37,662 bases of DNA from a virus. Both the position numbers and the translations under genes were made by a program. Below the pieces are notes generated by a model, which worked only from the letters and a program-made list of their open reading frames with translations, made no database searches and had not been told where the DNA came from. The stretch is from positions 1 to 37,662 of IMG/VR virus record IMGVR_UViG_3300046512_000231. One strand, written 5' to 3'. Every line of letters begins with the position of its first letter. Position 1 is the first letter of the stretch. This document shows, in pieces, positions 27,666-37,580 of the stretch.

Positions 27666-28207
27666 GCGCTCATCCTCCTGCGATGATCACCCTGCATCAG
27701 CTCCATCAGGCGGCTGAAGTACTGGATGCTCGCCTGTTGAGCGGGCATCGGAGTAATGAGGGCGGGGCGGGCCGGGACGCCCTTCAGGCAATCCCAATTG
27801 TCAGGATGGAACGGCATCAGGTCGCGGCGTTCGGTGGCAAGAACCACCAAGTCGGCACGGATCACGCTTTCTGGGAGGATTGGGTCAATGTTGAAGCGTT
27901 CGCAGATGGCGTACCAGACGCGCTGCTCGATCTCTCGGTATTCGGGCAACAAGGCCTTGAGCGGGCGAGTCATGTCGCCGAGGTATGCTTCTGTGGCGTC
28001 GTGCAATAGCGCCGGAAGCTGGTCGCGTTTCGGTACCAGGTTGCAGACGATCATGCTGTGTTGAGCCACGCTGTAGTGGGTACGTGTGTGGCCATTGAAG
28101 CGACAGAGCTGGGACAAGGCGTGGGCGATGTCGTGTGGGGTGACCATGGCAGCGGTTGGGTTCAAAAGGTTGAGCTGCCGGCCGCTATTAGTGAGTATCC
28201 AGCTCAT
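27662..28207 (-). CDS. HD-domain hydrolase (YfbR-like)
   Basis: The 181-residue protein has the HD superfamily signature: His at about 50 in YSVAQHSMIV, His69-Asp70 in PALLHDATEAYLGDM, and Asp118 in IRADLVV. The text resembles 5'-deoxynucleotidases and phosphohydrolases of the YfbR type found in many phages. It may process deoxynucleoside monophosphates or remove modified nucleotides. It starts in the stop of the next upstream gene. A role together with the dNMP kinase in nucleotide metabolism is inferred. Confidence 0.8.
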   Translation of the reverse strand: MSWILTNSGRQLNLLNPTAAMVTPHDIAHALSQLCRFNGHTRTHYSVAQHSMIVCNLVPKRDQLPALLHDATEAYLGDMTRPLKALLPEYREIEQRVWYAICERFNIDPILPESVIRADLVVLATERRDLMPFHPDNWDCLKGVPARPALITPMPAQQASIQYFSRLMELMQGDHRRRMSA

Positions 28208-28854
28208 GCTGCGTCCTCCGAGGGCAGATGACCCGGTTCAACGTCCTGGTGATTCATGTCAAGTTCAAAGGCTTCACGCAGCGCATCGCGCAAGTGCTGG
28301 TACCCCTCGGTGTTTGCTTCATGGGGGAAGCTGATCGTGCTCAGCTCGGGCTCTGCGTTAAAGTTGCCGCGTTTGTTCAGCCATTCGATGAGTTGGGTGT
28401 CCAGCGGCTGGGCGCTAAGGTTCGCTGATGATTCCACTGAATGGAAAACTCGATAGGCCATTGCTCGTGACAATTTGATCAGTTGTGCGGCTCGAGCTTG
28501 GGTTGCTTCAGTGCCGTGCAGTGCCTTCCAAGTCTGAAGTGCGAGCGCCAGGAACTGGGTGATATCCATCAGATCGCGGTAGTCACTCGACGTGAACGGT
28601 GTGGCCTTGATTCCGTGCATTTGTTTGCGAAGGTCAGCCAGTTGCTGAGCCTCACGGGTGCGCAGCTGCGTAATAGTGGCGATGTCAGCGTTCAGCGCGG
28701 CGATTCGTCCGCCGTGTTTCATCTTGTAGTCACGAGCGCCTTCCGCGTATTGCCGGTCGAGCGCTTGCAAGATCAACCTAAGGATGTAGTAACCCATCAT
28801 CAGCAGGGCGATGGTCGAGCAAATGGCGATGATCATTAGGTGTTGAGTTTGCAT
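28204..28854 (-). CDS. Single-TM, coiled-coil-like protein of unknown function (216 aa)
   Basis: An N-terminal membrane helix (about 6-30, LMIIAICSTIALLMMGYYIL) is followed by a charged helical region with coiled-coil character (about 40-80, RIAALNADIATITQLRTREA). The helical C-terminal half holds no motif I recognise. Such proteins are common in the leftward early operon of Pseudomonas phages. It follows a leader hairpin (28876-28913) and shares the ACAGCACATG start context with two other genes. Function unknown. Confidence 0.65.
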   Translation of the reverse strand: MQTQHLMIIAICSTIALLMMGYYILRLILQALDRQYAEGARDYKMKHGGRIAALNADIATITQLRTREAQQLADLRKQMHGIKATPFTSSDYRDLMDITQFLALALQTWKALHGTEATQARAAQLIKLSRAMAYRVFHSVESSANLSAQPLDTQLIEWLNKRGNFNAEPELSTISFPHEANTEGYQHLRDALREAFELDMNHQDVEPGHLPSEDAA

Positions 28855-28875
28855 GTGCTGTGTTCCTCGTTATGG

Positions 28876-28913
28876 CCCGGCGCCGGAATTCTTGGTGAGA
28901 GGACGGCGCCGGG
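28876..28913 (-). promoter_or_regulatory. Leader hairpin B with conserved CTCTCACCAA loop
   Basis: On the minus strand a 10-bp perfect stem (CCCGGCGCCG with CGGCGCCGGG) encloses an 18-base loop, TCCTCTCACCAAGAATTC. It lies in the gap between DUF2303 and the 216-aa gene, 22 bases before the latter's ATG. The loop is shared with the elements at 31859-31887 and 33126-33156, while the stem sequence differs. The repeated element is described under findings. Confidence 0.75.
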
Positions 28914-28934
28914 TACTGCTACGGGGTAGGGAGG

Positions 28935-29744
28935 TTATGCGTTGAACGTTCCCAAGATCAGAGTGGCCGCACCGCCGACTTCTTTGGCGAGGGTCGTCTT
29001 GAACTCTTGGGCGATTTCTTCGACTTGCTGCTCCTCTCCGGCCCAACGCAACTTCAGGGTTGGCTTGTCGTCGCCGGTCAGGATGCTGAGCTTCAGGGTG
29101 AATACTCGGGTGCCCAGGCCGTCATACGGGATCAGCGAAAAATGCAGAGCTTCTACGCGGGACTCGGCATTTGCGGCTTCGATGCTGTCCATTGCGCTAC
29201 GGGCGGCGCCGAAGTTGTGTTCGCTAGTAGTCGCGGTGCTGCGGGCCTCGATAGTGATGTTGCGAACGCTGGCAACCGCGGCGCTGATCGGCATGGTTTG
29301 GCCGCCTTCTTTTATAGCGACCAGGTTCAGGTTCCAGTCTTCGATCCACTCAGCCAGCTCGCGTTGGGTCAGCTTCTTTCCGGCAATTTGCTGGAGTGCC
29401 TTGAATGCGGCAGTCGGCTTAAGTTTCAGGATTGCCACGTCGTCTGCATGGCCGGGGCTGATTTCATCGCCGAGGTTGAAGAACACCTTGCAGCTCATGT
29501 CATCTTGATCGATGAAGCCCTGCGCCTCTGAGCCATTGCGAGAGATGGTGTAACCCGCGAAATCGCGCAGACTGGTGGTGTGCAGCGAGCCACGAAAGCG
29601 GGAGCGTAGCGCTTGGAACTGTTCCAAGTTGTGGATTTTCACGCCGATGGGCAGAGCGGTAACGGGGAATAGAGTGGGGGGCAGATCGCTTGCTGCATGG
29701 GCCTGGTCGATGATCAGTTCGAGTGTGTCTTTGTTGAGCGGCAT
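28935..29744 (-). CDS. DUF2303 protein
   Basis: The 269-residue protein matches DUF2303 (YfdQ-like, PF10065): TALPIGVKIHNLEQFQALRS, RFRGSLHTTSLRDFAGYTIS, then LKPTAAFKALQQIAGKKLTQ and QRELAEWIEDW. These proteins are abundant in early regions of phages and prophages; no activity is established. The C-terminal part carries a beta-rich stretch (LRWAGEEQQVEEIAQEFKTT). It starts near a weak copy of the leader motif and ends before leader hairpin B. Confidence 0.85.
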   Translation of the reverse strand: MPLNKDTLELIIDQAHAASDLPPTLFPVTALPIGVKIHNLEQFQALRSRFRGSLHTTSLRDFAGYTISRNGSEAQGFIDQDDMSCKVFFNLGDEISPGHADDVAILKLKPTAAFKALQQIAGKKLTQRELAEWIEDWNLNLVAIKEGGQTMPISAAVASVRNITIEARSTATTSEHNFGAARSAMDSIEAANAESRVEALHFSLIPYDGLGTRVFTLKLSILTGDDKPTLKLRWAGEEQQVEEIAQEFKTTLAKEVGGAATLILGTFNA

Positions 29745-29754
29745 TGGTGTTTCC

Positions 29755-29770
29755 TTTTTGGTGAGAGGAT
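29755..29770 (-). promoter_or_regulatory. Leader motif D (CCTCTCACCAAAAA, weak stem)
   Basis: On the minus strand ATCCTCTCACCAAAAA lies 11 bases before the DUF2303 start. It shares the 10-base core CTCTCACCAA with the hairpin loops, but only TCC/GGA can pair around it. It may be a degenerate copy of the leader element. Confidence 0.5.
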
Positions 29771-29795
29771 TTGGTGCTGCGTTTAGGTGTCCGCG

Positions 29796-30137
29796 TTAGC
29801 GAGCGGCCACTGGTGTGTCTTCGCTTTTGAAGAGCTGCGCGGTTGGGTCGTTCTGGAACAACGTCAGCCCTTGCGGGGTGAGATACAGCGGCGTGTCGAG
29901 TGTGGAGTCCTCGCGCAACTTTCCGCGTTTGGTGGGCTGCGAAAAGTCGAGGGTGTGGCTGACGGCGACTTGGTTGCTTTGGCCGATCTGCTTCATCTTC
30001 AGCTTGATGGTCACTTCACCGGCCTTGCCGTAGTCGATTACACCGGCGGCAACGTTCGAAAGGGCTTGGCCGATTTGCTGGGCAAATACACCGGCATTGA
30101 GTGAGCTGAAGAAGTCATTCGTGTCTGTGGCTTTCAT
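29796..30137 (-). CDS. Phage early protein of unknown function (113 aa)
   Basis: The start at 30137 is chosen because it has GAGGCACAGCAC upstream and the ACAGCACATG context seen at two other gene starts; the frame stays open further upstream without support. The protein reads DFFSSLNAGVFAQQIGQALS near the start and GEVTIKLKMKQIGQSNQVAV in the middle. I do not recognise a domain; its neighbour DUF2303 often has such a small partner. It ends 25 bases before the DUF2303 leader motif. Confidence 0.65.
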   Translation of the reverse strand: MKATDTNDFFSSLNAGVFAQQIGQALSNVAAGVIDYGKAGEVTIKLKMKQIGQSNQVAVSHTLDFSQPTKRGKLREDSTLDTPLYLTPQGLTLFQNDPTAQLFKSEDTPVAAR

Positions 30138-30196
30138 GTGCTGTGCCTCATTGGGTTTGTGTTGTTTGCCCCTGAACGGCAGGGGCCACCGTTGAA

Positions 30197-30439
30197 TCAG
30201 GCCGCTTCCTTCGTCGCTTGAGCGTCGAGGTAGTCGGCAAGGTCGTGCAGGTAGACCACCGGCTTGGCACGGGTTGAGCCGTGCAGGCGCTTGACCGTGA
30301 GCTTGATGCGGCCCTTCTTGATCTCGGTCAGCAGGTGCCGGTCGGTCCGAATATGCGAGAAGTAGTGCTCGCGAACGGCTGCCAGCGTTGGGCATGGCGT
30401 GGCGAACTGACGCCGAAGTTGATCGAGGGTGTTGCTCAT
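30197..30439 (-). CDS. PrtN-like transcriptional activator (80 aa)
   Basis: The protein follows the PrtN pattern: a short N-terminus, then LAAVREHYFSHIRTDRHLLT, EIKKGRIKLTVKRLHG and VVYLHDLADYLDAQ at the end. PrtN activates pyocin genes in Pseudomonas aeruginosa by binding P-box promoter sequences. Small PrtN homologues occur in prophages, perhaps as local activators. It overlaps the next upstream gene (ATGA). Whether it acts on this phage or on host bacteriocin genes is not visible. Confidence 0.75.
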   Translation of the reverse strand: MSNTLDQLRRQFATPCPTLAAVREHYFSHIRTDRHLLTEIKKGRIKLTVKRLHGSTRAKPVVYLHDLADYLDAQATKEAA

Positions 30440-30810
30440 GCTGCGTTCTCCCCGAACCCCTCCGATGGGGGCAGCAACTTGAGACGGATCAACTCGGCGA
30501 GACCTTCTTTGCTTTTGCCCATGGCTGCCGCGCAGATGTTGCCGCGTTGGTCAGCGACGACGGCGCCGTAGGGGTATTCCGGCGATTTAGTCGGGGTGAC
30601 GTAGGCGATTTGCCCTTCGCCAACGACCGCGTCGACGCAGCGGAACACCTCCGCCAGATCGGCGCTGACCGGTGGCAGCGATTCCAGAAGTTGTATCGCT
30701 TCGACCGACGCACCAATCAGCGTGGCGCGGCTGATCACGGTCGGGTGATTGAGGAACATCGGGACCAGCTTCAGTGCGCCGATGGCTTGGGTTATGGCGT
30801 TCTGGCTCAT
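30436..30810 (-). CDS. Early protein of unknown function (124 aa)
   Basis: The start at 30810 is the ATG overlapping the stop of the KilAC-like gene. The protein contains HPTVISRATLIGASVEAIQL, then ADLAEVFRCVDAVVGEGQIA and YPYGAVVADQRGNICAAAM, a soluble alpha/beta pattern. I recognise no family. It is tightly coupled on both sides. Confidence 0.6.
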   Translation of the reverse strand: MSQNAITQAIGALKLVPMFLNHPTVISRATLIGASVEAIQLLESLPPVSADLAEVFRCVDAVVGEGQIAYVTPTKSPEYPYGAVVADQRGNICAAAMGKSKEGLAELIRLKLLPPSEGFGENAA

Positions 30811-31082
30811 GCTGCGGCGTCCTTGTGCGTAATGGTGATGTTCAGTTTCTTGGCAACCCACTCAATGCCTGCTTCTTTCACCATCACTACCGCGTAGTGG
30901 CGGTACTGGCTGATGGCGGGTACCCAGGTGCTGCGTGGGTCCGAAAACAGATAGCCGCGGTCGCGGTGCTTGGTGGCGAGATCGCCGCTGGTGGTCAGGA
31001 TTCCCAGCTCCCGCAAACTGGTGCGGAAGGCGCGGGGCTTGAGGCCGAGCACGGCGGCCGTTTCGTCCAGGGTGCGGTTCAT
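30807..31082 (-). CDS. KilA-C/antirepressor-like DNA-binding protein (91 aa)
   Basis: The N-terminal half reads LDETAAVLGLKPRAFRTSLR, then ELGILTTSGDLATKHRDRGY, a winged-helix-like pattern typical of the ANT/KilAC domain found at the C-terminus of phage antirepressors. The protein is only 91 residues and has no N-terminal Bro or AntA domain, so it is a stand-alone domain. It ends with the KKLNITITHKD segment. It may counter the CI repressor or regulate early genes. Confidence 0.65.
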   Translation of the reverse strand: MNRTLDETAAVLGLKPRAFRTSLRELGILTTSGDLATKHRDRGYLFSDPRSTWVPAISQYRHYAVVMVKEAGIEWVAKKLNITITHKDAAA

Positions 31083-31092
31083 GGCGCCGTCC

Positions 31093-31665
31093 TCAGGCTG
31101 CGTCGCAGTCGACGCGTGCGGTCAAGGCGGTGAAGAACTCGTCCAACTGACCAAAGAGTTCGTCGAGGGCGCCATCGTTGTGCAGCACTAGGTCGTCGTC
31201 CTGAATGCCAATGCCTGATTCGCTGACATGTGGGTTCACCTCTGTCGCATCAGGGCGAAGGACGTGGACCACGATGCCGCCGCGCTTCCGTACAAAGTCA
31301 GCCTCGTTCTCGAATCGCAAGTCGCTGATCACGAAGCCGGTTGCGGTGTCGTGGGTCTGCCCGAGGAATTCGAGGTTCTGTTCAGCCAGTAGCAGCCAGA
31401 GCTCGGGATGCACCAGGTTGCGGCCCCACTCAGTACCCAATGACTGCATCAGTTCGCGAGCGGAGCGGCCGAGCCAGCCTATAGGCTGCTCTTTTCGGTC
31501 GCCGTCGAAGTCGCACGGACTCAGGTTGAAGATGTTCATCAGGCCTTCGCGCAGCGGGTCTGCGAATGCGTAGGTCTGGAAGCCGTGAACATTGGCCAGG
31601 TGAGTCGCTGCAGTGGTTTTGCCGGTGCGTGCGCGGCCGGCAAGGCCGATCAGGAGCTGCTTCAT
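31093..31665 (-). CDS. Deoxynucleoside monophosphate kinase
   Basis: The 190-residue protein has a P-loop at its start (GLAGRARTGKTTAATHLANV). FQTYAFADPLREGLMNIF is followed by RELMQSLGTEWGRNLVHPEL and VISDLRFENEADFVRKRGG. These match phage dNMP kinases of the T4 gp1 type. The enzyme converts dNMPs to dNDPs for phage DNA synthesis. It overlaps the 64-aa gene upstream by 4 bp. Confidence 0.88.
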   Translation of the reverse strand: MKQLLIGLAGRARTGKTTAATHLANVHGFQTYAFADPLREGLMNIFNLSPCDFDGDRKEQPIGWLGRSARELMQSLGTEWGRNLVHPELWLLLAEQNLEFLGQTHDTATGFVISDLRFENEADFVRKRGGIVVHVLRPDATEVNPHVSESGIGIQDDDLVLHNDGALDELFGQLDEFFTALTARVDCDAA

Positions 31666-31856
31666 GCTGCGTCACCTCCCCATGGGGAAGTGTCCATGCC
31701 GCTGATGAGTTGTGCAGCTGTGGACTTGCTGCGCGTATTGATAATGACGAGCAGGCCAGTGGTCTGCTGAATGGCAATGACGGCTGAAGGATTGGTTGCT
31801 GCTGTCGGATGTAGATAGACCGGGCAGCGGGTGTTGTTGTGCTGTGTGGTTTGCAT
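31662..31856 (-). CDS. First gene of leftward operon, unknown small protein (64 aa)
   Basis: The ATG at 31856 lies only two bases after leader hairpin A (31859-31887), so the hairpin may hide or position the ribosome site. The product (HNNTRCPVYLHPTAATNPSA, then AIQQTTGLLVIINTRSKSTA) has no domain I know. It ends in the ATGA overlap with the dNMP kinase gene. It may be a real short protein or mainly a leader cistron that couples translation of the kinase. Confidence 0.5.
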   Translation of the reverse strand: MQTTQHNNTRCPVYLHPTAATNPSAVIAIQQTTGLLVIINTRSKSTAAQLISGMDTSPWGGDAA

Positions 31857-31858
31857 GG

Positions 31859-31887
31859 CTCGTACTCTTTGGTGAGAGGGGTACGAG
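31859..31887 (-). promoter_or_regulatory. Leader hairpin A at the 5' end of the leftward operon
   Basis: On the minus strand CTCGTAC and GTACGAG pair (7 bp) around a 15-base loop, CCCTCTCACCAAAGA. The stem ends two bases before the ATG at 31856 and starts about five bases downstream of the -10 box at 31892-31897. The hairpin would therefore sit at or within a few bases of the 5' end of the transcript. Confidence 0.8.
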
Positions 31888-31891
31888 ATTT

Positions 31892-31919
31892 AGATTACAA
31901 GAAAACACGTTAATCGCAA
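31892..31919 (-). promoter_or_regulatory. Leftward sigma-70-like promoter for early operon
   Basis: Minus strand: -35 TTGCGA (31914-31919), 16-bp spacer, -10 TAATCT (31892-31897). It lies between the repressor terminator and hairpin A and points into the 64-aa, kinase, ..., integrase operon. Nearby AT-rich half-sites (TTTTTTGTAG, twice at about 31926-31947) may be repressor contacts. Confidence 0.6.
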
Positions 31920-31951
31920 CATGATTTTTTGTAGTGTTTTTTTGTAGGCAT

Positions 31952-31978
31952 AAAAAAACCCGCTTTCGCGGGCTTTTT
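31952..31978 (-). terminator. Terminator of the repressor gene
   Basis: CCCGC, TTTC, GCGGG flanked by A7 on one side and T5 on the other, so it can work in both directions. On the minus strand it follows the CI stop by 10 bases and separates the repressor message from the leftward early promoter. Confidence 0.85.
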
Positions 31979-31988
31979 CAGTTACGTA

Positions 31989-32756
31989 TCAGCGTAGAAC
32001 TGAGTACCAGAAGACTCGGCCGATGATGGAAAGATTCTGCTCTGCAATCTGCTCCGGGCCGTATTCTTCGTCTTCGTGCTCGTCTCGGTTGAAGCTGCGT
32101 AAGCGCATACCACCTGAAGGTAGTCGATAGAGGATCTTCACCCGCAATTGCCCATTGTGATCAAGCGCAAAAATATCGCCGTCTTTGACTGTTGTTTTGC
32201 CACGGTCAACGCCCACTGTACTTCCATGAGGCAATACAGGTTCCATGCTATTGCCGTACACGGAAACACATACGGCATTCTCTGGCTGAACACCCTGTTT
32301 TCTCAGGGTCATTTTACCGAACCGGAGTTTCGCTTTTGAGTGAGCTTGGATCGCGACGCGACCGGAACCTGCGGATAGCTCTACTTCCTTGAGCAATGGA
32401 ACCTCGACTTCGTCGTCATCTAAAGGCGTGTCGTCGTCCCAGGCTTCGATAGGTCCGAGCAGGGCTGCGTTGGATTCAAACCGTGGCGCCGGCATTTCGT
32501 AGTCTTCCCCAATGTCTAGGCAGAACAATCTGTCGAGGATTCCCATTGCCTTGGCAATGTAGGGGCTGTGCTTTGAAGATTGAGACTTACCGCTCTCGAA
32601 CGCTGCATAGGTCTGCTGAGAAAGGTGTTCGCCAGATGGAAGGATATTGGTGACCATCTCTGCAAGCTGGGCTTGAGTGAGGTTGAGCTCTAGCCGCCGG
32701 GCTTTAAATAGCCTGGCAGTTTCGCTGGGGCGGTTCATGTGGTCGCTTGAATTCAT
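31989..32756 (-). CDS. CI-like repressor (HTH + S24 peptidase)
   Basis: The 255-residue protein has an N-terminal HTH_3-type domain (about 10-75, LNLTQAQLAEMV...TYAAFESGKS). The C-terminal S24 domain contains the autocleavage site Ala129-Gly130 (ELSAGSG), Ser170 in YGNSMEP and Lys207 in LRVKILYR. It represses lytic promoters and is cleaved when RecA is activated, so the prophage should be SOS-inducible. It is divergent from cro, with operators in the 105-bp gap. Confidence 0.93.
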   Translation of the reverse strand: MNSSDHMNRPSETARLFKARRLELNLTQAQLAEMVTNILPSGEHLSQQTYAAFESGKSQSSKHSPYIAKAMGILDRLFCLDIGEDYEMPAPRFESNAALLGPIEAWDDDTPLDDDEVEVPLLKEVELSAGSGRVAIQAHSKAKLRFGKMTLRKQGVQPENAVCVSVYGNSMEPVLPHGSTVGVDRGKTTVKDGDIFALDHNGQLRVKILYRLPSGGMRLRSFNRDEHEDEEYGPEQIAEQNLSIIGRVFWYSVLR

Positions 32757-32861
32757 TGCGTGAGGCTACAAAAAAATTTGTTATCGATCAAACGTAAAAA
32801 GACGTTGAGATCTAACAAAAAAAGCCGTAAATTGAATTTGTAAACGACGCGTGAGGTTGAC
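32757..32861. promoter_or_regulatory. CI/Cro operator and divergent promoters
   Basis: The rightward promoter pR has -35 TTGAGA (32805-32810), a 17-bp spacer and -10 TAAATT (32828-32833). Palindromes that may be operators are ACAAA-AAAA-TTTGT (32768-32781) and AACGT-AAAAAG-ACGTT (32791-32806). The second touches the -35 box of pR, where a bound repressor would block polymerase. A leftward promoter for cI is probable but no clear box pair is seen. Confidence 0.7.
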
Positions 32862-33116
32862 ATGACTACTTCAGATTCCATGCGGAGGGCCTTTACCGAA
32901 GCAATTGAAAAGGCGGGAGGTCAATCAGATTTCGCTCGATTGATCACGACCTCTGCCAAACCGGTTTCGCAGCAGCTTGTTTCTTATTGGCTGAAGAAAG
33001 GGAAGCTCCCCGCTGAGCTTGTACTCCGAGTGGAGCGATTGACCGGTACATCCCGTTACGAATTGAGGCCCGACGTTTTTTGCGATCCTGAAGATCTCAA
33101 GCTCAACGTGGCTTAA
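32862..33116 (+). CDS. Cro/YdaS-like regulator
   Basis: The 84-residue protein (RRAFTEAIEKAGGQSDFARL, then KPVSQQLVSYWLKKGKLPAE and VERLTGTSRYELRPDVF) matches the YdaS/Cro-like HTH family (PF15943). The closing RYELRPDVFCDP text is the usual family end. It is the first gene rightward from pR, opposite the repressor, and should act as the lytic-side switch protein. Ribosome site GTGAGG precedes ATG 32862. Confidence 0.88.
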   Translation: MTTSDSMRRAFTEAIEKAGGQSDFARLITTSAKPVSQQLVSYWLKKGKLPAELVLRVERLTGTSRYELRPDVFCDPEDLKLNVA

Positions 33117-33125
33117 AGGTGCCGA

Positions 33126-33156
33126 GCTGGGGCCTCTCACCAAAGAATCCCCCAGC
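33126..33156 (+). promoter_or_regulatory. Leader hairpin C upstream of the CII-like gene
   Basis: GCTGGGG (33126-33132) pairs with CCCCAGC (33150-33156) around a 17-base loop, CCTCTCACCAAAGAATC. The loop matches hairpins A and B, which lie in the opposite transcript, and the stem sequence is again different. It starts 9 bases after the cro stop. Downstream ACACAGCACATGCA (33172-33185) also matches the start context of the 216-aa gene. Confidence 0.8.
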
Positions 33157-33230
33157 CCAGCTACGACGACACACAGCACATGCACATCGGTCGTGGTTGT
33201 AGGATAGGGGCTACCCCATCTTATGGCTAC

Positions 33231-33253
33231 ACCGTAAACAGGGGATTTACGGT
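33231..33253 (+). promoter_or_regulatory. Hairpin holding the CII-like gene's Shine-Dalgarno in its loop
   Basis: ACCGTAAA (33231-33238) and TTTACGGT (33246-33253) form a perfect 8-bp stem. The loop CAGGGGA contains the ribosome site for the ATG at 33255. It may display or hide the ribosome site, or serve as a DNA operator. Confidence 0.65.
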
Positions 33254-33254
33254 T

Positions 33255-33743
33255 ATGAGTCGCACAGATCTTTTGCCGGACGCGGGTCCGGTCCTTCCTT
33301 TGCGCCAAGCAATCTATCGCGCTGGTCGTGATTACAAGGGCGGAATCACCGCCCTTGCCTTTGACATGGTGTTGGAAAACGACACCCTTCAGAAGAAACT
33401 CAAGCTCGATGAAGAGCGCCGTTGGCTGAACCCTGATGAGCTTGAAGAGCTGATCAGGCTGACCGGTGATTCGCGTTTGCTTGACGCCTTGATGCGCCCG
33501 GCGGGTGCCGTGTGGTATCGCCCGGTGCCAGTGCCAGCGACTCGTGATGCCCTGAAAGCTGTGGGTAAGTTGCTCGGCGAGACTGGCGAATTCGTAGCAG
33601 CCATGCACGACGGCGCTGCGGACAACATCTGGGAACTTCACGAGGTCCTCGATCTTGAAAAACAGGGCATGGACGTGATCCGCGAAATTCTCGGAATCAT
33701 GGCGGGTGCCCGTCAGGCGATGGAGGATCGCGTCAATGGCTGA
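33255..33743 (+). CDS. CII-family phage regulator (Phage_CP76-like)
   Basis: From ATG 33255 the protein is 162 residues: LRQAIYRAGRDYKGGITALA, then LQKKLKLDEERRWLNPDELE and LIRLTGDSRLLDALMRPAG. This matches the CII/CP76 family of phage regulators (PF06892). An in-frame ATG at 33180 would add 25 residues, but lies in the leader and lacks a ribosome site. Such proteins activate or tune the lysogeny promoters in P2-like and lambdoid phages. It overlaps the zinc-finger gene by 8 bp. Confidence 0.85.
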   Translation: MSRTDLLPDAGPVLPLRQAIYRAGRDYKGGITALAFDMVLENDTLQKKLKLDEERRWLNPDELEELIRLTGDSRLLDALMRPAGAVWYRPVPVPATRDALKAVGKLLGETGEFVAAMHDGAADNIWELHEVLDLEKQGMDVIREILGIMAGARQAMEDRVNG

Positions 33744-33942
33744 CGATATCGACCGCGCCAACGACCAGGCGCAGTACCTGCTTGACGTTGCCCTTCATCG
33801 TAGTCGTCGCGTGGCATCGAGCCGTGTTAGCGCTCAGTTCTGCGAGGATTGTGACGATCCTATCCCGTTGCTTCGACAGCAGACGATTGAGGGTTGCGAG
33901 ACCTGCGTCCACTGTCAGGGGTTGCGGGAGGCTCGGCGATGA
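33736..33942 (+). CDS. TraR/DksA-type zinc-finger protein
   Basis: The 68-residue protein has a helical N-terminus (DRANDQAQYLLDVALHRSRR) and a C4 zinc finger (FCEDCDDPIPLLRQQ...ETCVHCQ), with CxxC and CxxC pairs about 20 residues apart. Small TraR/DksA-like proteins bind RNA polymerase through the secondary channel and can mimic the effect of ppGpp. It ends in the ATGA overlap with the primase gene. Confidence 0.85.
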   Translation: MADDIDRANDQAQYLLDVALHRSRRVASSRVSAQFCEDCDDPIPLLRQQTIEGCETCVHCQGLREARR

Positions 33943-36641
33943 GTGAACCGGCCAAAGGAATAGCCATCGCCAACTGGGCAAAGCGTTATATCGATACCTT
34001 CGACCTGGCCCTGGTCTCTATTGAGCCAGGTGAGAAAGGCCCAAAAGGTATGGGGTGGAACAAGCCGGGCGGATACATCACTGACGCCGCTGCTGCTGAG
34101 GCTTTCTGGCAGCGAAACCCTAATCACAACCTCGGCGTCGTGCTGGGACCCAGCCGTGTCTGCTCGTTGGACGTTGATGACGTTCAGTGGACGCGGCATG
34201 TGCTGTATGAACTGTTGGGTATCGATCTGGATGCCATGGCGGTGGTGTACCCGACCATTGTCGGTAACCCTGCGCGGTTTAGGGTGGTTTTCAAAGTGCC
34301 GGACGGCGTCGAGCTGACCCGGCATTCTCTGTCGTGGCCGAATGAAAAGGACCCTGATGGTTCGATTCACAAAGGCTTGATGGTTAAGGCCAAAGCGGCA
34401 AAAGATCAAGGCGATGCGGCCGGTGATGCTGCGGCGCGCGCCGAGGCTGAAGAGTACAAGCGTTTCACGGTATTCGAGTTGCGCGCTGGTCTGGTTCAGG
34501 ATGTGTTCCCACCTTCGATTCACCCGGGTACCGGCAAGCCTTACACCTGGCGAACACCGCCGAGCGCAACTGATGGTCTGCCGACGCTGAATGCTGACTT
34601 GCTGAACATCTGGCAAGGCTGGGACATCTTCAAGCGTGATGCCGAAGCAGCGTGCCCTTGGGCGATCAAACCTGCTGCGCCGGCGGCGAGGGTCGTCAGG
34701 CGTCCAGCACCTGCAACGGGTAATCGGCCATCGGTGATCGATGAGTTCAACCGTTGCCACGATGTGCAAGAGCTGCTGCGCTCCCACGGCTATATCAAGC
34801 GGGGCAGCAAGTGGCTGTACCCGCAGAGCAGTACCGGGCTGCCGGGCGTGACGATCAGTGAAGAAGGCAAGGTCTACTCGCACCATGGCGCCGATCCACT
34901 GGCGAACGGGCATCAGAACGACGCCTTTGAAGTGTTCTGTTTGCTCGAACACGGCGGGGATCAGTCGAAGGCGGTGAAGGATGCTGCGCGCATGTTGGGC
35001 ATGCAGCATTCATCCCGTCCTGATCCGCGTGATCTTCCCCCGACCCCATCTGATGTCATGCCCGAGCCGAGCTGCGCGAGCGCCGACATCAGCGAGGTCG
35101 CTCTGGCTCCTGATGGGGGTGCGGGGGAGGTGCTGTCACTTGAGCACGTCCTGCGTCGGTTTGCGTTGGTGGAGGGAACGACCCATGTCTGGGACTTTGA
35201 CCAATCGCGGGTAATGAAGAAGTCAGCCTTCGAGGCTCGCGTCGGAAAGCCATTGGCGAAGCAGTGGTTGGAAGACACCGAGCGGCGCAAGTTGATTTCT
35301 GATGACCATGTTCGTGACATCGAACAGGCACGGCGGATGTCGGGCAAGAAAGGTGGTGCTTTTGGTATGCCGCCCACCGAGCGTTACGTGTACATCGATG
35401 GCACGAAGGACGTGTGGGACCGGGAGAAAAAAAGGCGTGTGGCCGAGGGCGCTGTGAAGATGGCTCTGGGTGATACCTACCCGTTGTGGTTGAACAGCAG
35501 TGAGCGTCGGGTGGTTGATGTTGACCATATCGTGTTTGACCCGACGATGACTAAAGATCCGAGCGTGTACATCAACACGTTCGATGGCCTACCACTCGAA
35601 CCGACCAATGATGAGGCCGCCTGCGAGCATCTGCGGTGGTTGATTTCGTTCCTTTGCAACCATGATCAGGATGCCACGCTGTGGTTGACGCGGTGGATGG
35701 CGTACCCACTGCAACACCTCGGTGCCAAGATGGACACGGCCGTGTTGATGCACTCGATCATGGAGGGTTCCGGCAAGAGCCTGCTTTTTGCCGATGCGAT
35801 GGGCATGCTTTACGGTCAGTACGCGGCCACCGTTGGACAGACCCAGCTTGAAAGCAACTTCAACGCCTGGCAAAGCCGCAAGCTCTGGTCGGTGTTTGAA
35901 GAGGTCGTCAGCCGCGATCAGCGGTACAACCAGGTGGGCAAGATCAAGCATTTGATCACCGGCAAGACGGTGCGCATGGAGTCGAAGTTCATCAATGGCT
36001 GGGAAGAAGCCAACCACATGAACGCGGTGTTCCTGAGCAACGAGATCATGCCGTGGCCCATCAGCGAAAGCGACCGCCGAATGCTGGTGATGTGGCCCGA
36101 ACTTACCCTGCCGGCAGACCGCCAGAAGGCTATCGGCCAGGAGCTGAAGAACGGCGGAGTCGCGGCACTGTATGGCTGGCTGTTGTCGATTGACCTCGGC
36201 GACTTTGACCAGCGCACCCGGCCACCAAGTACGGCGGCACGTGAACGGCTGGTGGCATTGAGTCGGGCCGGCTGGCAGACATTCCTCAACCTTTGGAAGT
36301 ACGGCGAGCTGGGGCGTGATTTGTGGGGCGTGTGTCTTTCGACCGATCTCTATTCGCTGTTTCTGGAATGGTGCCACCGCAACAAAGAGCACGTGATGAG
36401 CCAGACGAAGTTTTCACTGTTCATCGGTTCCGAAGTGGATAAGACCCGATCTATTCCTTGGACTGAAGGCAGCAATCGGCGGTTTGGTGCTTTTTTCTTT
36501 CCGAGCGATCCCGGCGCTTCCCAGCCCCCATCACTGAAGGCGGCCGATCTGGGCAAGACCGTCAGCGACTGGCGTGCCCAGGCAAAGTTGGCCGGCTGGA
36601 ACGTGGATAACTGGGAACACGTGAAGGCGGCTGCAGCATGA
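33939..36641 (+). CDS. Replicative primase-polymerase/helicase (900 aa)
   Basis: The N-terminal part has the prim-pol pattern (PF09250): RYIDTFDLALVSIEPGEKGP, NPNHNLGVVLGPSRVCSLDV with a DxD metal site, then PARFRVVFKV. The C-terminal part is a DUF5906-type SF3 helicase with Walker A near residue 609 (MEGSGKSLLFADAMG), Walker B-like LWSVFEEVVSRD, and VFLSNEIMPWPISESDRRML as sensor region. It would prime and open the origin. It is the largest early gene and lies next to the iteron-like array. ATG 33939 overlaps the preceding stop. Confidence 0.9.
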   Translation: MSEPAKGIAIANWAKRYIDTFDLALVSIEPGEKGPKGMGWNKPGGYITDAAAAEAFWQRNPNHNLGVVLGPSRVCSLDVDDVQWTRHVLYELLGIDLDAMAVVYPTIVGNPARFRVVFKVPDGVELTRHSLSWPNEKDPDGSIHKGLMVKAKAAKDQGDAAGDAAARAEAEEYKRFTVFELRAGLVQDVFPPSIHPGTGKPYTWRTPPSATDGLPTLNADLLNIWQGWDIFKRDAEAACPWAIKPAAPAARVVRRPAPATGNRPSVIDEFNRCHDVQELLRSHGYIKRGSKWLYPQSSTGLPGVTISEEGKVYSHHGADPLANGHQNDAFEVFCLLEHGGDQSKAVKDAARMLGMQHSSRPDPRDLPPTPSDVMPEPSCASADISEVALAPDGGAGEVLSLEHVLRRFALVEGTTHVWDFDQSRVMKKSAFEARVGKPLAKQWLEDTERRKLISDDHVRDIEQARRMSGKKGGAFGMPPTERYVYIDGTKDVWDREKKRRVAEGAVKMALGDTYPLWLNSSERRVVDVDHIVFDPTMTKDPSVYINTFDGLPLEPTNDEAACEHLRWLISFLCNHDQDATLWLTRWMAYPLQHLGAKMDTAVLMHSIMEGSGKSLLFADAMGMLYGQYAATVGQTQLESNFNAWQSRKLWSVFEEVVSRDQRYNQVGKIKHLITGKTVRMESKFINGWEEANHMNAVFLSNEIMPWPISESDRRMLVMWPELTLPADRQKAIGQELKNGGVAALYGWLLSIDLGDFDQRTRPPSTAARERLVALSRAGWQTFLNLWKYGELGRDLWGVCLSTDLYSLFLEWCHRNKEHVMSQTKFSLFIGSEVDKTRSIPWTEGSNRRFGAFFFPSDPGASQPPSLKAADLGKTVSDWRAQAKLAGWNVDNWEHVKAAAA

Positions 36642-37475: not shown

Positions 37476-37580
37476 CCGTACTCAAGGGGTAAAAAGTCAC
37501 CACGATATGAAATTTGCGCCTTGGGGCTGACCTCGCACGTGCTGTGCAGCTTCACCCGGCCACCCCTGAGCCGGTCACCT

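Follow-up and report, generated by a model that had tools for sequence, protein, structure and literature searches.

The 37,662-nt window analysed here is the IMG/VR record IMGVR_UViG_3300046512_000231 of a Pseudomonas temperate phage (all coordinates are window positions), and its two divergent early operons carry a family of hairpins that present much the same loop on unrelated stems. In this phage and its relatives, which form a large group, there are three to eight such hairpins per phage, at fixed places in the two operons; when the loop of a phage changes, nearly all its sites change together, and this points to a recognition system that has not been described. The pairing of the stems is under selection, a second element of constant sequence follows most of the hairpins, and the motif is restricted to this type of prophage. 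As to function, we tentatively prefer to regard the sites as nut-like, that is, as possible control sites of the early operons for a phage factor in one lineage of Pseudomonas temperate phages.

Site A (31859-31887, minus strand; stem CTCGTAC/GTACGAG, loop CCCTCTCACCAAAGA) opens the left operon, 2 nt from the ATG of a 64-aa open reading frame (ORF), and an equivalent was located 5' of the 64-aa gene in relatives. Site B (28876-28913, minus; a 10-bp stem CCCGGCGCCG, core loop CCTCTCACCAAGAA, folding z of -4.95) is inside the same operon, between genes, 21 nt from the start of the next one, the ORF at 28204-28854. Site C (33122-33161, plus; core stem GCTGGGG/CCCCAGC, loop CCTCTCACCAAAGAATCC) occupies the gap between cro and cII, which is the position of nutR in lambda; it is followed after 23 nt by an in-frame upstream ATG at 33180 and after about 98 nt by the likely cII start at 33255. 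An earlier examination of the letters, called here the sequence-only reading, had picked out these three hairpins on the sense strand, in a gap or leader 2 to about 100 nt from a gene, and both the hairpins and their placement hold. Its description of the stems as fully paired also holds, with the correction that C, given there as 33126-33156, pairs beyond the 7 bp assigned to it. A covariance model for which 20 hairpins were used, the window contributing three, returns B (27.0 bits), C (24.1) and A (20.5) as its best matches in the window, the next reaching 13.5 bits. The exact 14-mer CCTCTCACCAAAGA occurs twice, and allowing up to 3 mismatches gives 11 matches, where 2.8 are expected.

A weak fourth copy of the loop had also been proposed. 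This site D (29755-29770, minus; loop CCTCTCACCAAAAA), again inside the left operon, has a stem of only 4 bp in the window (z -1.1), which would cover the Shine-Dalgarno sequence (SD) of the DUF2303 gene. We accept it as a genuine fourth position, because relatives bear there the loop of their own phage class, in some cases (KT1, L033, LPPA56 and pAN) with a better stem.

In order to avoid selecting for the loop, loci were gathered via the CII protein, and 157 of them had enough flanking sequence. Every one has at least one hairpin between cro and cII (one in 93 loci, two in 50, three in 7, four in 2 and five in 5), nearly all show one where the left operon begins, and in many a further one lies inside that operon. 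The claim that the elements occur in both early transcripts is supported. The pattern recurs outside the window in well over 150 phage records, the named members being Lodos, LPPA56, KT1, SC_9_H1H8_2017, vB_PstS-pAN and PG1. A large number of IMG/VR contigs contain the exact 14-mer, frequently with one copy on the minus and another on the plus strand, separated by about 1.1-1.3 kb; these two are A and C. In GTDB contigs, scanned with the bare 14-mer, the matches were mainly chance ones. Across 199 Pseudomonas genomes the model gave 19 matches, of which 16 adjoin these prophage genes and the remaining few are isolated. For a 124-aa protein of the left operon, strong matches over the full length were obtained in 15 genomes, 13 of which also have a model match; among 195 genomes sampled across the whole order it was found in one only, the Pseudomonas centre genome. 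The comparison with Rfam which the sequence-only reading had suggested gave no family at gathering score (subthreshold chance matches only, at E up to 1), and no description came up in the open literature, which was searched for Pseudomonas phages with nut sites or with hairpins of conserved loop. The hairpin system is therefore undescribed as far as Rfam and the open literature searched are concerned.

That the pairing matters is clear from the way the stems change. Their sequences are unrelated between sites and variable within one site. In an alignment of 59 distinct hairpins, which was fitted to the structure, 120 cells show two-sided change against 49.9 +/- 4.7 in shuffles, and the covariation score is 0.528, compared with 0.157 when shuffled and at most 0.18 with slid partners. 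Counted by parsimony on CII trees, two-sided events number 27 for hairpins of the C family and 13 for those of the B family. A conserved loop on stems that change with pairing kept was the central claim of the sequence-only reading, and it stands; flanking pairs that break freely in relatives, which it had named as contrary evidence, did not occur.

The loop itself has a core CU-n-ACC(A), in which n is specific to the phage: C in most, G (CUCUGACC), A (CUCUAAC), U (CUUACCA) or missing altogether (CUCUAC, CUACCA). The resulting classes include CUCUCACC, CUCUGACC, CUCUAC, CUCACCA, CUUACCA and others. The class at site A is the majority class at site C in 141 of 146 phages, and the internal hairpins of the left operon agree with few exceptions. 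LPPA56 has CCTCTAC at A, at both of its C hairpins, at B and at D, while its close relative Lodos, whose left operon is about 90% identical, has CTCTCAC at A, B and both C hairpins. As these two phages differ in class yet both infect P. aeruginosa, the class is set by the phage; gene conversion is an unlikely cause of the concordance, since the stems differ. Chance, or ordinary repeats without function, could be defended by the shortness of the motif and the weakness of D in the window, but the presence of hairpins in all 157 loop-independent loci, the strong covariation and the concordance of classes refute it, and we give it practically no credence.

The second element is ACACAGCAC (CACAGCA), found within 110 nt 3' of 375 out of 500 hairpins, usually 5-25 nt and mostly 5-15 nt past the stem, against a background of 2.65%, and it is invariant across loop classes. 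In the window the element, as CACAGCAC, follows A at 31839-31846 (minus), within codons of the 64-aa ORF, follows B at 28855-28862 (minus), where it abuts the ATG, and follows C at 33172-33179 (plus), where a second hairpin (33163-33194) has it in its loop. In pAN and PG1 the constant element likewise occupies the loop of a hairpin of its own. One lineage (L375, L315, L090 and L285) has deleted the 64-aa gene, joining the start codon of site A to the dNMP kinase; the hairpins there are intact and ACAGCACAGC is kept, now as part of the start of the kinase gene. Since CACAGCA is retained where the 64-aa gene is lost, it is not there for its codons. A further CACAGCAC directly before an ATG, that of the YfdP-like gene (30138-30145, minus), stands without the loop motif, and at the matching position of L316 and L317 there is a loop word, TTCTCACCA.

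What could such a system be? We favour nut-like control because of the placement, the phage-specific address carried by a hairpin, and the constant second element. In lambda the order is pL, nutL, first gene on the left and cro, nutR, cII on the right, which matches pL, A, first gene and cro, C, cII here; in both cases one sense-strand site follows pL and another lies between cro and cII, the hairpin loop is specific to the phage and common to its sites, and the second element is constant among phages. The loop core CU-n-ACC would then serve as the address and the stem would present it; nascent early transcripts would display the loop to a phage-encoded factor which, together with a host factor reading ACACAGCAC, might modify the elongation complex, so that processive antitermination or antipolarity would control both early operons. 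We do not, however, file the sites as nut sites, because a boxB loop, a boxA and an N protein were looked for and not found. The loop here is of 8-18 nt with core CUCU-n-ACC, unlike boxB, a short hairpin with a GNRA-like loop; no boxA (CGCUCUUUA) could be seen by eye 5' of A, B or C in the window, and ACACAGCAC is no boxA; no arginine-rich antiterminator of the N type was found in the left operon, whose first gene (the 64-aa ORF, phrog_13491) is not arginine-rich and is dispensable in one lineage. Lambda also differs in that here there are up to eight copies and the stems are not RNA-like in their mismatch pattern.

Several observations weigh against the nut-like reading. The linear element lies 3' of the hairpin, where boxA of lambda lies 5'. 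No intrinsic terminator above chance was found on the sense strand of the early operons in the window. The concordance has its exceptions, too: some phages of P. aeruginosa type are mixed, and mixed loops occur in 6 of the 64 phages that carry more than one C hairpin. To these must be added the mismatch pattern of the stems, the position of site A relative to its promoter and the behaviour of the core early proteins.

The sequence-only reading held that a conserved loop with covarying stems is the signature of an RNA structure and not of a DNA operator. With this we disagree: covariation establishes that pairing is selected, whereas action as RNA instead of DNA is not established by it. The C and B stems show no preference, with 29 events that produce G-U and 37 that produce A-C (p 0.39), while a neighbouring hairpin in the cII leader (about 33193-33230, plus) has 96 G-U against 20 A-C events, so that this neighbour carries a strong RNA signature; the two differ by Fisher's test at p 1e-7, with the reservation that the events in all these counts are inferred and not independent observations. 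The pattern suits an element acting at the level of DNA, such as a cruciform or single-stranded hairpin whose loop would be recognised by a protein of DNA binding, replication or recombination, with sites flanking exchangeable modules such as immunity. It would also suit this explanation that the arms of site A covary across the predicted transcription start, and that, should replication start between A and C, every site would be on the strand serving as lagging-strand template. On the other hand, the phage primase is excluded as the reader, no integron- or IS-like enzyme is found among the core genes, and a strict need for Watson-Crick pairs in a protein-RNA complex would give the same mismatch pattern. 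In our opinion a DNA-level element is a doubtful explanation, though one to be taken seriously.

Site A deserves separate discussion. In most phages a clear sigma-70-type promoter ends about 6 nt or less from the repeat, as measured in 95 relatives; in the window, to judge from the letters, pL would be TTGCGA-16-TAATCT (31892-31919, minus), with +1 predicted near 31885, within the 5' arm of A. Relative to the predicted start the arms pair in 82-97% of cases at -2 to +5 and still in 49-66% at -6 to -3, hence the repeat crosses the start. In many phages the 5' arm thus lies partly or wholly 5' of the predicted +1, and because it begins a few nt from the -10 box, part or all of it would remain untranscribed from pL. 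Folded from +1, the A RNA keeps about half its predicted energy (from a mean of -10.7 to -4.9 kcal/mol), and in the window 5 of the 7 pairs would remain. A different role for site A alone could be that of an insulator against read-through: only transcripts coming from cI would contain both arms and bury the start codon, while those from pL, lacking the 5' arm, would be translated. The 5' arm that straddles +1, the 3' arm that abuts the ATG, the position of cI, which precedes A on the same strand and is separated from it by a terminator, and the loss of energy on folding from +1 would all fit. Inverted repeats against read-through are known from IS10 and IS50, which site A resembles in straddling the predicted start and abutting the start codon; those elements have no conserved loop, however, the comparison covers A only, and a literature search for support found nothing. 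As the explanation leaves the shared loop and sites B, C and D without a reason, we consider it improbable, but burying the start codon in read-through from cI alone is a possible extra role of A.

The proposal of one shared factor is strengthened by the concordance of loop class at otherwise unrelated sites, with the qualification that a small RNA of the phage is disfavoured: no positionally conserved complement of the loop was found in six genomes. Hfq or another host factor acting alone, also proposed, would not account for the variety of loop classes among phages that share a host species. CII and the primase are common to all or nearly all members, and PrtN is present in 157, the 124-aa protein in 156 and the 64-aa protein in 155 of the 157 phages; none of the core early proteins compared tracks the loop class. 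Between loop classes I and III, PrtN, the KilAC-like protein and the primase are identical and the 124-aa protein nearly so, and we therefore reject PrtN, the KilAC-like and the 124-aa protein as determinants of class. The primase fails as a reader also because its Prim-Pol and Toprim types exchange within one class, and cI and cro because unrelated versions occur within one class. Of the core proteins, only the 64-aa protein is without a near-identical pair across classes; its structure is predicted with low confidence, and its absence from a lineage with intact hairpins rejects it as well.

For RNA binding in general, the 124-aa protein (30436-30810, minus) is the best candidate. Its model (pLDDT 84) has the order a-b-b-b-a, and Foldseek matches it first with the double-stranded RNA-binding domains (dsRBDs) of DGCR8 and lower with ADAR, Staufen, Rnt1p and viral RNase III, with E no better than 1e-3 and TM about 0.35; the resemblance is one of fold, since a search with the family's hidden Markov model against PDB and Pfam gave nothing significant. 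Larger ORFs of 170-248 aa in other Pseudomonas genomes also contain stretches that match the C-terminal half of the 124-aa protein. Such a protein would suit post-transcriptional operators, in which a phage RNA-binding protein on loops near starts alters the translation or stability of early genes. Its presence in all but one of the phages and its weak dsRBD matches (E 4e-3), with RNase III dsRBDs among those in the viral library, speak for this, as do the location of A, whose end is at -1 to +3 nt relative to the ATG in most phages, of D, which overlaps an SD, and of B and E-type sites just before ATGs. However, between C and the start of cII there are about 100 nt, and the SD of cII occupies another hairpin; in a compact operon any element between genes is always close to an ATG; the G-U pattern does not look like that of RNA; and the 124-aa protein hardly changes between classes I and III. 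Translational control of this kind seems to us unlikely, though it too has to be taken seriously.

Other known systems fit less well than the nut sites. HK022 put RNA consists of two hairpins that act directly on RNA polymerase without a phage factor; the likeness is in structured sites in both early transcripts and a second hairpin after C, the difference in copies that are reiterated here and a loop that co-varies, and put RNAs are not known to come in loop classes. The ssi sites of RSF1010 are similar as opposite-strand hairpins around a presumed origin, with a 3' element, but they are read by a primase, and the phage primase here does not track the loop. Among the AlpA/PrtN family regulators of Pseudomonas, processive antitermination has been proven for AlpA (PMC7969949). 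A gene of the PrtN family is present in 157 of 157 phages, although AlpA uses a DNA site between -35 and -10 and PrtN is identical across different loops. It is also conceivable, though not probable, that the system is of a kind of its own: many hairpin sites per genome, a loop word evolving in concert, drifting stems paired as DNA (cruciform or single-stranded), and a reader outside the nut, put and ssi systems.

Should the nut-like reading be true, a common group of Pseudomonas prophages would offer a second solution to the nut-site problem. The natural variants of the loop (C, G, A, U or no base at one position) make specificity directly testable, and the hairpins serve as a marker for this early module and narrow the search for the factor. 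More generally, the comparison of G-U with A-C mismatches, with a neighbouring hairpin as control, calls into question the usual step from covariation to RNA.

It is useful to add the genes. Leftwards from cI (31989-32756) the early region has the 64-aa ORF (31662-31856, minus; gene 1 of the left operon, the position of N in lambda), the dNMP kinase, the KilAC-like gene, the 124-aa protein, PrtN, the YfdP-like gene, DUF2303 and others; rightwards it has a YdaS/Cro-like gene, the CII-like regulator (Pfam CP76; 33255-33743, plus), which lies 3' of hairpin C, and the primase. The conserved cII-leader hairpin at 33193-33230 (plus) is of the GTGGTCGTAGGAT...ATCCTAYGGCTAC type and shows 245 G-U against 30 A-C cells in 99 unique sequences. 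Beyond it a perfect hairpin, ACCGTAAA-CAGGGGA-TTTACGGT (33231-33253, plus), has the SD of cII in its loop and stands 2 nt 5' of the ATG; in relatives its arms are nearly invariant and its loop is variable. The primase (33939-36641, plus) keeps its DUF5906 helicase part but exchanges its N-terminal domain, which is of the Prim-Pol type in some phages and of the PriCT-2/Toprim type in others. Finally, near-identical 28-nt stretches GGTGAAGCTGCACAGCACGTGCGAGG at 124-151 and 37519-37546 (minus) lie close to both ends of the record; they are present in KT1 too and are perhaps a terminal repeat or a duplicated gene.

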